DNA of 64,000 bases from Chloroflexota bacterium (GTDB lineage Bacteria > Chloroflexota > Dehalococcoidia > Tepidiformales > Tepidiformaceae). The DNA lies in assembly GCA_026705605.1 (NCBI GenBank), contig JAPPAK010000007.1, forward strand, positions 62,001 to 126,000, written 5' to 3'. The notes beneath the pieces are model-generated. The model made no database searches, was not told where the DNA came from, and saw nothing but the letters and a program-made list of their open reading frames with translations. A program made the position numbers and the translations under genes. Every line of letters begins with the position of its first letter. Position 1 is the stretch's first letter. This document shows positions 16,340 to 22,491 of the stretch, in pieces.

Positions 16340-16368
16340 AAAAACGGGGCCCGTCGAACGGGCCCCGT
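16340..16368 (-). terminator. Rho-independent terminator for the KamA-family gene
   Basis: A perfect 11-bp stem (16344-16354 with 16358-16368) closes a three-base loop and, on the minus strand, runs into TTTTT. It lies 28 bases after the stop of the radical SAM gene. Confidence 0.9.
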
Positions 16369-16395: not shown

Positions 16396-17769
16396 TTAGC
16401 CTTCCGTACCGGCGCCGATGCCTGCCTCGTAGCGATGCGCCAGCTCGTCCTCGAAGAAGAACTTCTCCTCGCCGAAGGCGGGCCGAAGCTCGTTCAGCCA
16501 GGTAGCCGACTCGTCGTACTGCGCGAAGAACGGGCGCCCGACCCAGTCCGGGTCGCGACCCTGCAGGAAGGTCAGCGTCAGCACCTTCTGTCCCGCGACC
16601 TCGGCCGGACCGCTCACGGCAACCTTTCCGGGCTCCGCCGACATGCTCGGCCCGCGCACCGTTCGCGCCAGTCCGCTGACCTGGTTGTATGCGCCGCGGA
16701 AGATCTCCCACGCTCGTACGAGCGGGATCTCAAAGAAGTGCTTCGCGCCCGTGTCGCGCGCGACGAACATGTAGTACGGGATCATTCCGAGCCGTACCTG
16801 CTCGCGCCACATCTCCGCCCACGCGTCCGAGGTGTCGTTGATGTTCCGCATGATCGGCGACTGCGTCCGGATCTGGGCGCCCGTCTCGCGGATGCGCTCC
16901 GTCGCCTCGCGCACCGCCGGTGTGCTCAGCTCTCGCGGGTGGTTGAAGTGCGCCATGATCGAGAGGTGCCGCCCGGTCGCCGTGATGCGCCGGAAGATGT
17001 CCAGCATCTCCTCCGCGTCGTCGTCCGTCGTGAAGCGGTACGGCCAGTAGCCCAGCGCCTTCGTCCCGATGCGGATCGTCCGCAGGTTGGGCGGGTCGTC
17101 CTCCAGGATCGGGTCGATGTACTGCTTGAAGCGGCGCGTCTTCATCACCATCGGGTCGCCGCCGGTGATGAGCACGTCGCTCACGCGCGGCCGCTCCCGC
17201 AGGTACGCGACGAGGCCGTTCGCCTGCTTCGTCGCGAACTTCAGGTCGTCGAGGCCCACGAACTGCGGCCAGCGGAAGCAGAAGGTGCAGTAGGCGTGGC
17301 AGGTCTGCCCGTTGCTCGGGAAGAGGAGGACCGTCTCCTCGTACTTGTGCTGCAAGCCCTCGACGGTCTCCTCGTAGAGGACCGGCACGTTGTGCTCGAG
17401 CTGCCCCGCCGGATGCGGGTTGAGCGTCATGCGAATGCGGTTTGCCGCCTCGTCGATCTCGGCCCGGGAAGCGTCCCGCGAGACCAGCGTCGCCACCTCG
17501 TCGAAGTGCTCGTCGCGCAGCATGTGCTGCTGCGGGAACGTCAGCGTGAAGATCGGGTCGTTGGGAACGTCGTCCCAGTTGATCAGCTCGTTCACGACAT
17601 AATTATTGGTCTTGAACGGCAGCACCCGGGATACCACGTCGATCGCGAAGCGCTGATCGTCGGTCAGTCGCTCCGCCTGGGGCAGTCCTTCCACGTTGTG
17701 GAGAGTGATCGCGCGGTATTTGGCGCGCTCCGGGGATTCCTCGGAGAGGTCAACTACTGTGCTCGTCAT
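16396..17769 (-). CDS. KamA-family radical SAM aminomutase
   Basis: The 457-residue protein has the radical SAM cluster motif CHAYCTFC near residue 158, the GGDPMVM loop, and a later PGKVAVSGP segment whose Lys may bind PLP as in lysine 2,3-aminomutase. Aspartate equivalent to Asp293 of that enzyme looks kept (NINDTSD), while the second substrate aspartate is not evident, so the amino acid shifted may not be lysine. Products of this family (beta-lysine, beta-glutamate) can be osmolytes. AGAGGAGG precedes ATG 17769, and a c-di-AMP riboswitch lies about 100 bases upstream. Confidence 0.83.
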   Translation of the reverse strand: MTSTVVDLSEESPERAKYRAITLHNVEGLPQAERLTDDQRFAIDVVSRVLPFKTNNYVVNELINWDDVPNDPIFTLTFPQQHMLRDEHFDEVATLVSRDASRAEIDEAANRIRMTLNPHPAGQLEHNVPVLYEETVEGLQHKYEETVLLFPSNGQTCHAYCTFCFRWPQFVGLDDLKFATKQANGLVAYLRERPRVSDVLITGGDPMVMKTRRFKQYIDPILEDDPPNLRTIRIGTKALGYWPYRFTTDDDAEEMLDIFRRITATGRHLSIMAHFNHPRELSTPAVREATERIRETGAQIRTQSPIMRNINDTSDAWAEMWREQVRLGMIPYYMFVARDTGAKHFFEIPLVRAWEIFRGAYNQVSGLARTVRGPSMSAEPGKVAVSGPAEVAGQKVLTLTFLQGRDPDWVGRPFFAQYDESATWLNELRPAFGEEKFFFEDELAHRYEAGIGAGTEG

Positions 17770-17797
17770 AAGGGGCGCCTCCTCTGGCTACTGTATA

Positions 17798-17814
17798 CCC
17801 GCCATGGTGGCGGG
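17798..17814 (-). promoter_or_regulatory. GC hairpin between riboswitch and KamA-family start
   Basis: On the minus strand CCCGCC (17814-17809) pairs with GGCGGG (17803-17798) across five bases. It is followed by TATACA (17797-17792), a -10-like hexamer, and then the ribosome-binding site. It may be part of the riboswitch output or an internal promoter. Confidence 0.4.
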
Positions 17815-17845
17815 GCGGGCGATCTCTGCTCGAAACCACCGACTG

Positions 17846-17874
17846 GGAGGCTGGTCGCGTAGTCGCGAGCCTCC
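17846..17874 (-). promoter_or_regulatory. Candidate expression-platform hairpin of the riboswitch
   Basis: GGAGGCT (17874-17868) pairs perfectly with AGCCTCC (17852-17846). The 5' arm lies where the closing stem of the riboswitch ends, so the two folds could compete. There is no U-run behind it, so it is not a simple terminator. Confidence 0.5.
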
Positions 17875-17996
17875 GAACGCCTGCGGGGTTAGCTGACGGG
17901 TTCGGCGTCGGAGATCGCCTGTGCGCTCTCGCGCACTTCACCCCAACAATGGGTCCCCCGCTCCCCGTGCGACCCGGGTGAGTCGCGCGAAGATTC
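17858..17996 (-). ncRNA. c-di-AMP riboswitch (ydaO/yuaA motif)
   Basis: Read on the minus strand, this segment shows the conserved ydaO pieces in order: GAGCGGGGGACCCA, then GGGGTGAA, a variable hairpin (GTGCGCGAGAGCGCAC), and CCGAACCCGTCAGCTAACC followed by CCGCAGGCG. These are the hallmark bases of the c-di-AMP-sensing RNA. It lies in the 344-base gap between the divergent ku and KamA-family genes and points toward the latter. Confidence 0.93.
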
Positions 17997-18005
17997 GGCC
18001 CCTCC

Positions 18006-18011
18006 AGTTTA
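18006..18011 (-). promoter_or_regulatory. Candidate -10 box (TAAACT) for the riboswitch transcript
   Basis: TAAACT on the minus strand lies 10 bases upstream of the conserved riboswitch core. No good -35 box is seen. Confidence 0.35.
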
Positions 18012-18113: not shown

Positions 18114-18956
18114 ATGCCCCGAGCCATCTGGAAGGGTGTCATCAGCTTCGGCATGGTGAGCATCCCCATCCGCCTCTTCCCCGCCACCGAGAGCAAGGAC
18201 ATCGGCTTCCGCCAGCTCCGCCGCGACACGAACACCCGCGTCCGCATGCTCCGCTGGGATCCCGTCGAGGAGCAGGAAGTGCCCTACGAGGAGATCGTGA
18301 AGGGCTACGAGTACGCCAAGGACCGCTACGTCATCGTCGACGATGAGGACCTGGAGAAGCTGCCCCTTCCCACCAAGCACACCATTGAGCTCACCGCCTT
18401 CGTCGAGGAAGCCGAGATCGATCCCGTCCACTACGAGAAGTCCTATTACCTCTCCCCCGAGGACGCGGGTATCAAGCCCTACTCCCTCCTGATCCGCGCC
18501 ATGCAGGCGAAGGGCCTCATCGCCATCGCCAAGGTCGCCATCCGAACCAAGGAGCGCCTCTGCGCTCTCCGTGCGCGCGGCGACCAGCTCATCCTCGAAA
18601 CGCTCTACTACCCCGACGAGATCCGCGATCCCGGCGAGTCCGTCGCCGTCGACGAGGTCTCCGAAGAGGAGATGGAGATGGCCCGCGCCCTCATCGAGAT
18701 GCTCGAAGAGCCCTTCGACCCCGAGAAGTACAAGGACCAGTACCGCGAGGCGCTGATGACCATCATCAACGCCAAGCTCGAAGGCCAGGAGGTCGCGACC
18801 CCCGAGGCGGCCGCGCCGCAGCCTGCCGTCGACCTCATGGCCGCCCTCCGCGCGAGCGTCGAGGCCGCCAAGGCCCGCAAGGAGAGCGAGTCGGCCGCCC
18901 CGGCCGCGGACAACGGCGCCACGGCCGACGAGAAAGCCGCCGTCGCCGCAGACTAG
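18114..18956 (+). CDS. ku: Ku DNA end-binding protein
   Basis: The 280-residue protein begins MPRAIWKGVISFGMVSIPIR, the standard start of bacterial Ku, and has the central YEKSYYLSPED block. The last 60 residues are an Ala/Glu/Lys-rich tail, which in other Ku proteins helps contact DNA or LigD. Ku forms a ring on broken DNA ends and recruits LigD. The next gene starts three bases after its stop, making this the first gene of an end-joining operon. Confidence 0.95.
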   Translation: MPRAIWKGVISFGMVSIPIRLFPATESKDIGFRQLRRDTNTRVRMLRWDPVEEQEVPYEEIVKGYEYAKDRYVIVDDEDLEKLPLPTKHTIELTAFVEEAEIDPVHYEKSYYLSPEDAGIKPYSLLIRAMQAKGLIAIAKVAIRTKERLCALRARGDQLILETLYYPDEIRDPGESVAVDEVSEEEMEMARALIEMLEEPFDPEKYKDQYREALMTIINAKLEGQEVATPEAAAPQPAVDLMAALRASVEAAKARKESESAAPAADNGATADEKAAVAAD

Positions 18957-18958
18957 CC

Positions 18959-19774
18959 ATGCCTCACCACGCGGCTCGTCTGGCGGAGGTCATTGCCAGC
19001 GACTTCTACGGAGGGCAGGGGCTGAAGCTGAAAGGACAGCCACCAAGAAAGTGGGAGGAATCGTGCGAGGTAAGGGCCGTTGAGGAGTTGCGGGACCGTG
19101 GCGCTGACGACCGCCAAGTACGGCTTTTCCTGACCTTTGTCGCTGCGGTGTCTCGCGACAGGGACTTCAAGCAACTCCTAGACGCCGCTGTCGATCTCTT
19201 CAAGACCCGCCGAGAGCTGTATGAGCCCGGCGAGGTTGCTGAGATGCCCCTCGATGCCCTCCGAAACTGGCTCCGAGAGGCTAGGGTTAGTCGGAAGCAC
19301 AGGCCCGACTCGGACGCTTGGTCCGCCATTGCTAGCAGTCTGACGCAGCCAGGCCCAATTGCGACTGCCATCCATGACGGCACAGGAGACGCTAGGAGGC
19401 TCCTGTGGGAACTGGATGCGCTAGCTGACGGCGACCCCCGCTATCCCCTCCTTAAGGGCGACAAGTCCGGTCCGCTGTGGTTGGGGTGGCTCGCTGTCTT
19501 GGGTTCCGCTGACCTAGAGAACCTTGCCCTTGTGCCCGTAGCGGTAGACACCCATGTCCGGCGAGTAAGCAAGGCGCTTGGAGTTGTTGATGCAGGCAAG
19601 GCTAGGGCTCCCATCGTGGACCGGGCGATTCGTGCGGCTTGGTTGGCCGTGGTCGACGAGGCTGAACTAGTGGGTCCTGTGGGCGCGGCAGGCACATGCG
19701 CCGCACTCAACTCGCCGCTGTGGCTACTGGGGAAGCACGGTTGGCAGTGCTACAAGCGGTGGGTACCGGAGTGA
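18959..19774 (+). CDS. HhH-GPD-like DNA glycosylase candidate inside the end-joining operon
   Basis: The 271-residue protein has [19 protein letters not shown] near residues 190-208, which resembles the VDTHVxRVxxRLG segment holding the catalytic Asp of endonuclease III-type glycosylases (here Asp197). A lysine in [13 protein letters not shown] (Lys169) could be the lyase residue. The four-cysteine Fe-S loop of endonuclease III is absent; only two C-terminal cysteines remain. Codon use is unlike that of its neighbours (many AGG, TTG, CTA and AAA) and GC is lower, suggesting acquisition. It starts three bases after ku and overlaps ligD by four bases (GTGA). Confidence 0.6.
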
Positions 19775-22491
19775 CCGAACCCCTCGACCAATACCGCGAG
19801 AAGCGCGACTTCGCGGCCACCCCCGAACCCCCCGACGCCGTCCCCGAGGGGCGTGCCGGCCCCCTCACCTTTGTCGTCCAGAAGCACGACGCGACCCGCC
19901 TTCACTACGACCTCCGCCTTGAGGTTGGCGGTGTCATGAAGTCCTGGGCCGTGCCCCGCGGCCCTTCCAGCGACCCCGCTGTCCGCCGCCACGCCGTCAT
20001 GACCGAGGACCATCCCATCGCCTACTCCGCCTTCGAGGGCGTCATTCCGAAGGGCCAGTACGGCGCAGGTCAGGTAATCGTCTGGGACGCCGGCACCTAC
20101 GCGCCCGAGCACGAACGCGTCTACGACTTCTCCTCCCGCGAGGAGGCCGAGGCAGCCATGGAGGCGGCCATCGAGGCCGGCAAGCTCTCCGTCCAGATGC
20201 GCGGCCGCAAGCTCAAGGGCTCCTGGTCCCTCGTCAAGACCTCAACCGACTGGCTCCTTCTCAAGCACGACGACCCCCTCGCCGACCCCGACGCTGACCT
20301 CACCGCCCTCGATCGCTCCGTCGTCTCCGGCCTCACCCTCGACGACATCCGAGACGGCCACCTCCCCCGCCACCGCAAGGCCCCCTCCGACTACACTCCC
20401 GACGCCCTCAACGGATCGAGTGCCGCGCCCTTCCCCGACACCCTCCCGCCCATGATGGCGAGCGTCCGCGAGCCCTTCTCCCATCCCGACTGGCTCTTCG
20501 AACCCAAGCTCGACGGCATCCGCGCCGTCGCCCACATCTCCGGCGGCGAGGCCCACCTCTACTCGCGTCGTGGCACCGACCTCACCGCCACCTACCCCGG
20601 CCTCGTCGCCGCCCTCGCCGCCCAGCCCGTCGCCGAGGCCGTCTACGACGGCGAGATCTGCGCCTTCGACGAGCGCGGTGTGCCCTCCTTTGAGCTCCTC
20701 CAGCAGCGCATGAACCTCGCCGGCGAACTCGACATCGCCGGAGCCGAGGCGCGTGTTCCCGTCAGCTACATGGCCTTCGACCTGCTCCACCTCGACGGCT
20801 TCGATCTCACCGGCGTCGTCCTCGAGGAGCGCAAGGAGACTCTGGCCCGCGTCCTTTTGCCGGTCGGCCCCGTCGCCCTCGTCGAGCACTTTCAGGCCGA
20901 GGGCAAGGAGGCCTACGACGGCGCCGTCGCACTCGGGTTGGAAGGGGTCGTCGCCAAGCGCCGCGGGAGTCGCTACCTCCCCGGGAAGCGCTCCGACTCA
21001 TGGGCCAAGATCAAGGCCCGCCAGACCGCCGAGTTCGTCGTGGCCGGCTTCACCCCCGGCGAGGGCCTCCGCGAGCCGACCTTCGGCGCGCTCCTGCTCG
21101 CCGCCCGCGAGGAAGACGGCGCCCTCACCTACCGCGGTCGCGCCGGCGGAGGCTTCAGCGACGCCCTCCTCGTCGACCTCCGCGCCCGGCTCGACACGCT
21201 GACGACCGACGCCTCCCCACTCCCCGAGACCCCGCCCGAAGCCCAGGACGCGACCTTCGTCCGCCCCGAGCTGGTCGTCGAGGTCGAATACACCGAGGTC
21301 ACGTCAGCCGGGCTGTTGCGAGCCCCCGTCTTCAAGCGCCTCCGCCCCGACATCGCCCCCGACGACGTCGTCTTCGTCGCGGAACCGGCGTCGGCTGCCC
21401 CCGCTCCTCCCACCGCCCCCTCGCTGTCGAGCCAGGTCGCCTCGGTGCTCGCCCAACTCGACGAGAATCGCGAGGAACTGCGCCTCGATGTCGAGGGCCA
21501 CGAGATTCCGGTAACGAATCTCGGGAAGGCGCTCTGGCCGGAGCACGGCTCCCAGCGCGCCGTCACCAAGCGCGACCTGCTGCGCTATCTCGCGACGGTC
21601 GCCCCCCTCATGCTCCCCCACCTGCGCGACCGCCTCATCACCCTCACCCGCTACCCCAACGGCATCGGCGACCTTCACTTCTACCAGAAGCACTCCGAAG
21701 CTCCGCCCCCGGAATTCGTCGAGACCGTGACCCACCACTCCGAGGGCGCCGGCGGTGACCGCGAGTTCCTGCTCTGCAACAACCTCGCGACGCTGCTCTG
21801 GCTGGGGCAGCTTGCCAACCTCGAGTTTCACGCGACCATGGCCCGTGTCTCTCCCGAGCCCGACGCCCACGGCCTCCCCCGCGACTTCACCGGTTCGCGC
21901 GAGAACGTTGAGGCATCCGTCCTCAACTACCCCGACTTCCTCCTCTTCGACCTCGACCCCTACATCTACCGGGGCGACGAGGCTGCCGGCGAGGAACCCC
22001 AGCTCAACCGCAAGGCCTTCGCCAAGACCGTCGAGGTGGCCCGCGCCTTCAAGGAGATCCTCGATGCCGCCGCTCTCCCCTCCTACGTGAAGACGTCGGG
22101 CGCGACCGGCCTGCACATCTACGTGCCCGTCCTCCGCCAGTTCCCCTACCCCGTCATTCGCTCCCTCTGCGAGACCGTCAGCGGGGAGCTGCTCGCCCGC
22201 ATGTCCCGCGATGTCACCCTTGAGTGGGCCTCCGAGAAGCGCACCGGCAAGATCTTCCTCGACGTCAACCAGAACGCCCGCGCCAAGAACGTCGCCGCCA
22301 TCTTTTCGCCCCGCGCCAAGCCCGGCGCGCCCGTCTCCGTGCCCGTCCGCTGGGACGAGCTCGACGACCTCTACCCGACCGACTTCACCGTGCTCACCGC
22401 CCTCGAACGATTCGCCGAGACCGGCGATCTCTGGGCCGGCATCCTCGACGCGAAGCAGGACCTGACCGCCCTCCTCGGGATCGACGCATGA
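19771..22491 (+). CDS. ligD: Multifunctional end-joining DNA ligase LigD
   Basis: The 906-residue protein has three domains in the order phosphoesterase (about 30-175, with [20 protein letters not shown]), ATP-dependent ligase (about 215-530, catalytic Lys246 in [10 protein letters not shown], with [16 protein letters not shown]), and primase-polymerase (about 565-900, with DLDPYIYRG and [14 protein letters not shown]). This is the Pseudomonas order, not the mycobacterial one. It trims, fills and seals broken ends held by Ku. The GTG at 19771 overlaps the upstream stop, and its own stop overlaps the next ATG. Confidence 0.95.

Follow-up and report, generated by a model that had tools for sequence, protein, structure and literature searches.

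Does the RNA element upstream of a KamA-like gene in a Chloroflexota bacterium place that gene under the control of cyclic di-adenosine monophosphate (c-di-AMP), and what would the encoded enzyme make? The locus lies on the minus strand of a 64,000-nucleotide stretch (the window) of contig JAPPAK010000007.1, from a genome of the class Dehalococcoidia, family Tepidiformaceae. A first-pass annotation had read the conserved bases of a ydaO/yuaA riboswitch there, and had proposed that c-di-AMP controls an aminomutase able to make an osmolyte. In the reading that we hold to be probable, a c-di-AMP riboswitch turns off, when c-di-AMP is high, the translation of an aminomutase-like enzyme from what appears to be a one-gene transcript, and this enzyme would yield a beta-amino acid that may serve as a compatible solute. 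The aptamer, its placement, its conservation, the complementarities and the fold were all computed.

Aptamer and leader of the KamA-like gene

The riboswitch and its gene comprise the following features:

17866..18010, minus strand: c-di-AMP (ydaO/yuaA) riboswitch aptamer, from the RF00379 covariance match
16396..17769, minus strand: gene for a KamA-like radical S-adenosylmethionine (SAM)/pyridoxal phosphate (PLP) aminomutase-like protein of 457 amino acids (aa), from an open reading frame (ORF) with profile and fold searches
16340..16367, minus strand: candidate intrinsic terminator, a 9-bp GC stem followed by TTTTT, read from the sequence

The Rfam model RF00379 (c-di-AMP, ydaO/yuaA) matches positions 18010-17866 of the minus strand over its full length (model positions 1-134), with 74.1 bits against a gathering cut-off of 38 and an E value of 2.5e-15; this score, together with the conservation described below, rules out a chance match. 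The core bases recognised in the first pass are thus borne out by a significant covariance search, and the aptamer ends 96 bases before the ATG of the KamA-like gene. The upstream neighbour, a Ku gene, is divergent, so that the KamA-like gene is the next one on the strand of the RNA. Both the identity of the riboswitch and its placement to control this gene are strongly supported. The genome of 2.79 Mb contains three RF00379 RNAs, that of the window among them, and encodes a single diadenylate cyclase domain. Apart from the riboswitch, the 64-kb window has one Rfam match at gathering thresholds, a tRNA. At the other end of the gene, the hairpin at 16367-16340 sits 3' of the stop codon. It had been proposed that the gene ends with its own terminator, and the 9-bp GC hairpin and its TTTTT can indeed be read directly, but a terminator consensus scan recovers just a 5-bp part of this hairpin, and shuffles average 0.7 such sites, so that the scan alone is not significant.

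Five short segments, all on the minus strand, make up the putative switch:

17908..17914, minus strand: UCUCCGA, loop strand of the pseudoknot, able to pair with the 3' tail over 7 bp, one of them G-U
17870..17876, minus strand: UCGGAGG, 3' tail strand of the pseudoknot, complementary to the aptamer loop
17868..17874, minus strand: GGAGGCU, which overlaps the pseudoknot tail and would form the 5' arm of an alternative (anti-sequestor) hairpin
17846..17852, minus strand: AGCCUCC (the antitail), predicted from complementarity and folding to pair with the tail in the ON state and with the ribosome-binding site in the OFF state
17777..17782, minus strand: GGAGGC in the Shine-Dalgarno (SD) region AGAGGAGGC of the KamA-like gene, from sequence and folding

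The pseudoknot, the tail/antitail helix and the antitail/SD helix are mutually exclusive, and the leader of the window's genus looks like a translational OFF switch. At high c-di-AMP, that is, under low osmotic stress, an aptamer with bound ligand would hold its 3' tail in the pseudoknot; AGCCUCC would then pair with GGAGGC, hide the ribosome-binding site and keep translation of the enzyme off. Without ligand, the tail GGAGGCU would pair with AGCCUCC and leave the site freer, and a fall of c-di-AMP upon hyperosmotic stress would allow the enzyme to be translated. This sign, off at high and on at low c-di-AMP, would follow from the helix scheme of the window and its folding, and it was also chosen because published c-di-AMP switches work in this direction (PMC6488665, PMC9960051, PMC9337991). 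A solved ydaO RNA contains a pseudoknot, and the sequence printed with it, compared by eye, holds the same kind of loop/tail complement (PMC5393176).

Equilibrium folding is consistent with such a switch. When the pseudoknot strands of the window leader are withheld, the probability of tail:antitail pairing changes from 0.88 to 0.00 and that of antitail:SD pairing from 0.01 to 0.56; in the window platform alone the latter goes from 0.11 to 0.93, and the full leaders of loci L085 and L004 shift in the same direction as that of the window. The helices were then counted in 17 family-type loci, some nearly identical, with G-U pairs allowed and L005 (a near-copy of L085) omitted. The pseudoknot has at least 5 bp in 17/17, and the tail/antitail helix at least 6 bp in 16/17; in L166 the tail helix has 5 bp and a credible SD is absent. 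An antitail/SD helix of at least 6 bp with a plausible SD is found in 13/17 (L006, L164 and L168 have 4 bp), and in nine of these 13 the SD is the enzyme's own. Some of the letters co-vary, as in L167 (GGGGGCUG/CAGCCUCC), in L006 (CGGAGU/GCUCCG) and in L162, where AGCCUCC faces the SD GGAGGCU. The GGAGGCT/AGCCTCC hairpin that the first pass had singled out as the possible switch is present (17874-17868 with 17852-17846) and fits that role by folding and conservation. Taken alone it is only mildly unusual: among 5000 dinucleotide shuffles of the spacer, 7.6% contained some 7-base complement of the tail and 0.9% the exact AGCCTCC. Its conservation carries more weight.

Several observations weigh against this scheme. 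The helix counts across the 17 loci are raw, without a shuffle control, and 3.4% of the spacer shuffles contained a 6-mer able to pair with tail and SD alike. In four of the 13 loci with an antitail-paired SD (L090, L094, L165 and L167), the SD near the RNA belongs to a short ORF and not to the enzyme. With the pseudoknot strands withheld, exposure of the SD changes modestly, from 0.52 to 0.29 in the window leader and from 0.49 to 0.36 in L085. In addition, the L004 platform without its aptamer gives an antitail:SD probability of 0.75 even with the tail free, and in L090 and L094, from two other genera, the SD is paired in both states.

It might also be, although we think it unlikely, that the leader of the window's genus acts on transcription, by Rho-dependent or weak intrinsic termination, and not on translation. 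The GGAGGCU/AGCCUCC hairpin resembles a terminator stem, and terminator-like hairpins occur at the equivalent place in two other families: in 6/6 loci of families f59 and f70 a GC-rich hairpin and a U-rich tract follow the tail, a raw count without shuffle control in which the tract is weak in L087 and L088. However, no U tract follows the hairpin of the window, L084, L162 and L163 have no terminator-like site, and complementarity to the SD is kept where the SD itself varies (L162, L163), all of which argue for translational control.

The enzyme and its possible product

The label of KamA family given in the first pass is loosely right. Judged by profile scores, the protein is a relative of the KamA aminomutases and not a member by the curated cut-offs, as it reaches 120.2 bits with TIGR00238 (KamA; cut-off 199.2), 114.7 bits with TIGR03820 (lysine 2,3-aminomutase; 525.4) and 92.6 bits with TIGR04368 (glutamate 2,3-aminomutase; 650). 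The fold search places it in the lysine-2,3-aminomutase fold, the best solved relative being PDB 2a5h, an L-lysine 2,3-aminomutase of about 20% identity, with other radical SAM entries far below. The CxxxCxxC iron-sulphur motif (C157, C161, C164) is kept in 110/110 aligned sequences, and so is K382, a candidate PLP-binding lysine that aligns with the lysine of the GGGK motif of the aminomutases.

The substrate is most likely an alpha-amino acid other than lysine, which would be converted into a beta-amino acid; as to the reaction, glutamate to beta-glutamate is a guess. Beta-glutamate is named with osmoprotectants or their precursors (PMC9337991), and glutamate 2,3-aminomutase (TIGR04368) shares a superfamily subgroup with the KamA-like protein, but it is marked by a Lys/Asn pair (PMC3965090), whereas the KamA-like protein has Asp312/Ser375. 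A beta-amino-acid osmolyte as the enzyme's product is plausible. More tentatively, it is possible that a new, widespread class of radical SAM aminomutases (in Dehalococcoidia, marine Nitrosopumilales, Halomonas, Bacteroidota and others) makes a beta-amino-acid compatible solute by a single step from a neutral or acidic amino acid, and that in Dehalococcoidia this step is gated by c-di-AMP via an aptamer tail that imitates the SD.

Relatives were drawn from a scan of 84,980 species genomes, the best 80 loci (of a total of at least 80) being 56-97% identical. Among the matches listed, the nearest named relatives of the window's genome are Dehalococcoidia with a 97%-identical enzyme, and the phyla include Chloroflexota, Bacteroidota, Pseudomonadota, Nitrososphaerota, Balneolota, Ignavibacteriota, Aquificota and others. 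Their titles name Halomonas, Nitrosopumilales and Thioalkalivibrio, but also Sideroxydans and a Gallionellaceae bacterium. The last two are mainly freshwater groups, so that the link to salt is not strict, a point against the osmolyte role. A same-strand ORF within 100 bp accompanies the gene in 24 of the best 80 loci and 56 apparently stand alone; in these loci we found no conserved operon partner from which the substrate could be deduced, and none that is widely shared. A Pfam scan of neighbours covered 93 of 111 chosen proteins, themselves selected from 295, and gave 119 families, most of them once among the 25 shown. The commonest was the MscS mechanosensitive channel (6/93); the match is named for L039, which has three orthologues (65-76% identical) among the 93, and this would leave about three independent cases. 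These MscS neighbours of distant relatives back the osmolyte role weakly. Na+/H+ exchanger and sucrose-phosphate-synthase-like genes, the latter named from sequence, also lie near the KamA-like gene in a few relatives. One set of relatives' proteins comprised 44 of 52, with L021 (stop codon) and, as a precaution, L027, L043, L055, L056, L061, L069 and L072 omitted.

Beside the KamA-like gene of ten thaumarchaeal or archaeal loci, among them L012, L020, L026, L039 and L046, stands a divergent gene with a product of about 580 aa (fewer where the contig ends), whose copy in L039 has an MscS beta-domain. A neighbour in the Nitrosopumilus locus L026, taken for a glutamine synthetase from its sequence, offered too little and was not used.

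On the other hand, the RNA might be a working c-di-AMP switch whose enzyme makes no osmolyte and modifies an amino acid for the envelope, for protein modification or for catabolism, a function that would be under c-di-AMP control just as cell-wall genes are. Cell-wall enzymes are among the known ydaO targets (PMC10117811), the neighbours of the relatives are very varied, as the 119 families in 93 proteins attest, and the enzyme is without the signatures of lysine and glutamate aminomutases. We nonetheless regard this alternative as doubtful, as MscS, Na+/H+ exchanger and sucrose-phosphate-synthase-like genes do adjoin the gene in some relatives, ydaO RNAs of the class also precede genes of the GT20 (trehalose-phosphate-synthase) type, and the 56 loci without a close same-strand ORF fit an enzyme that makes its product alone.

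Less likely still, and improbable in our view, is that the enzyme is in effect a lysine 2,3-aminomutase, that is, the case of ablA of Dehalobacter in another phylum. Its best solved relative is such an enzyme and, at the first of the two alignment positions that we take to be the lysine-binding aspartates (312 and 375), D312 is kept in 87/110 sequences. The first position is, however, Ala in 15/110 and Asn in 5/110, and the second, aligned with lysine aminomutases, is S375 (Ser in 105/110), so that the KamA-like protein, with the motif RTVRGPSMSxxPGK, differs here from PDB 2a5h. Lysine 2,3-aminomutase binds lysine through two aspartates (PMC3965090), and the absence of one of them, suspected in the first pass, was confirmed. 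Furthermore, the TIGR03820 score stays far below its cut-off, whereas four of six aminomutases of other Chloroflexota pass it (12 loci were fetched for the aminomutase alignment; L148, L151, L152 and L155 gave no row under the motif filter). An authentic lysine or glutamate aminomutase was rejected, as both cut-offs and residues fail. Missing C-terminal cysteines were dropped as an argument against a lysine aminomutase, since L153 and L154, which pass TIGR03820, are also without the motif.

Conservation of the RNA-enzyme pairing

A survey of KamA-type genes for an upstream ydaO RNA, one of the checks named in the first-pass annotation, came out in favour of the pairing. In the window's family the enzyme is present in 16 of 38 genomes and the RNA lies upstream in 15 of these 16, although many same-genus loci are near-copies, so that the 15 cases are not independent events. 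In a draw of 197 genomes of the class, the enzyme is encoded by 32 (E up to 1e-60) and RF00379 occurs in 79; the RNA lies upstream on the same strand in 11 of 30 KamA loci. As to the two remaining enzyme genomes, G183 carries its one RNA on a different contig, and G124 does not belong to the RNA-positive set. A tree of 108 proteins (near-copies L004 and L085 omitted) groups G092 with 11 rows that have the RNA in a single clade, with a Shimodaira-Hasegawa-like approximate likelihood ratio (SH-aLRT) of 96, while the RNA-bearing L098 falls in a distant KamA clade of the same class. There were thus at least two separate associations between RNA and KamA-type gene, or a single one that was lost several times. 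In the class draw the family is represented by 14 genomes, with two to seven RF00379 copies each in 2.3-3.5 Mb, a density at which chance placement beside the KamA-like gene would be negligible. That the pairing is kept in most related enzyme-bearing bacteria suggests a role for the enzyme in coping with osmotic stress. Riboswitch matches in the scanned KamA loci (gathering thresholds) all belonged to RF00379, with no Na+ riboswitch in tandem.

Other findings count against a general and direct control. In 19 of the 30 class loci the RNA is absent from the flanks (1.5 kb where the contig allows). Genome G092 (locus L086), of the same genus as the window, has an 87%-identical enzyme behind a short plain leader with no RF00379 match even at E up to 1, which makes c-di-AMP control appear dispensable. 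In six family loci (L090, L094 and L165-L168) a distance of 302-772 bases separates the RNA from the enzyme gene, with a small ORF in between in at least L090 and L168, and the SD close to the RNA is that of a short ORF and not of the enzyme; with such a distance and an intervening ORF, the RNA there would act on a larger unit. Lastly, under strict filters 48 of the 50 relatives' genomes scanned for RF00379 (30 of the best 80 loci were outside the scan) have no match, so that elsewhere the enzyme would work without c-di-AMP control; the two positive ones are the Dehalococcoidia genome of L006 and one from Blastocatellia, in which the RNA is absent from the KamA locus (L061).

That the position of the RNA is incidental, the element controlling nothing here or belonging to another transcript, would agree with its absence from one same-genus genome and with a sigma-70 consensus promoter scan that gave no match, but is extremely unlikely given the RNA in 15 of 16 enzyme-bearing family genomes and in a second KamA clade, and the divergent Ku gene that leaves the enzyme gene next on its strand.

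The proteins encoded between riboswitch and enzyme gene in L090 and L168 are homologous (152-156 aa, 37% identical), with no Pfam match for that of L090. In L166 (genome G390) two stop codons cross the enzyme match.

Related switches and other putative c-di-AMP targets

It had been suggested that control of an aminomutase by c-di-AMP would open a new link to osmolyte synthesis. The general idea is not new, since a tandem Na+/c-di-AMP riboswitch precedes ablA, a lysine 2,3-aminomutase gene of Dehalobacter sp. CF, where in vitro transcription has been reported and high c-di-AMP turns the gene off (PMC9337991). The likeness is clear, as in both cases a c-di-AMP riboswitch stands before a radical SAM/PLP aminomutase gene and is read as osmolyte control. 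On the other hand, the ablA leader combines Na+-I and c-di-AMP riboswitches with two intrinsic terminators and was tested in vitro with a lysine 2,3-aminomutase gene (PMC9337991), whereas the window, from Dehalococcoidia, has a single riboswitch, no U-tract terminator in the genus, predicted SD masking and an aminomutase-like family. The nlpC riboswitch of Corynebacterium glutamicum is likewise without a canonical terminator, probably translational and repressing, but its gene encodes a cell-wall peptidase (PMC9960051). The kdpFABC riboswitch of Bacillus thuringiensis is an OFF switch, with c-di-AMP falling and the gene being expressed upon K+ limitation, but it uses an intrinsic terminator and serves a K+ transporter operon (PMC6488665).

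The enzyme family, the lineage and the switch design nevertheless appear new. In open-licence literature, judged mostly by titles and the starts of abstracts, no description was found of the enzyme family, its c-di-AMP link or the SD-imitating tail; ydaO and an aminomutase came together in PMC9337991 alone, and the original ydaO surveys, outside this search, may list KamA earlier. If the proposal is true, an enzyme family of archaea and many bacterial phyla would gain a functional clue pointing to turgor or osmolyte metabolism, c-di-AMP-controlled solute synthesis would extend from one Dehalobacter case to another phylum and enzyme family, and the leader would be a candidate c-di-AMP switch that acts on translation by an explicit mechanism.

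Known targets of c-di-AMP riboswitches comprise K+ transport, amino acid transport, cell-wall and osmotic genes (PMC10117811, PMC7266159). A survey of the class covered 30 other ydaO loci and two of the window's own genome, with a downstream ORF called in 24, some of them doubtful. RF00379 RNAs precede GT20 and VTT-domain genes, as well as genes with weak zinc-ribbon and MFS matches, below cut-off. In Dehalococcoidia, GT20 follows ydaO in L119 and L139 (Pfam PF00982) and in L140 (similar sequence). The best-scoring ydaO of the window's own genome (L001 1200-1700, minus strand; G000:C4:162037-162172) stands before a small zinc-ribbon-like protein (CPKCGGS...CIMCGY), and similar ORFs follow ydaO in L129, with Pfam matches below cut-off, L132, L141 and L143; by sequence likeness, this protein is a recurring putative c-di-AMP target. 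The third ydaO of the genome (L003 900-1700, minus strand; G000:C2:355048-355175; 64.8 bits) is followed by an ORF of some 60 codons and, at a greater distance, by a dnaX-like reading frame, both read by eye.

Divergent from the riboswitch gene, positions 18114-22491 of the window (plus strand) encode a non-homologous end-joining cluster of Ku, LigD with nuclease, ligase and polymerase domains, and a third protein that matches HhH-GPD weakly, at a score under the cut-off.
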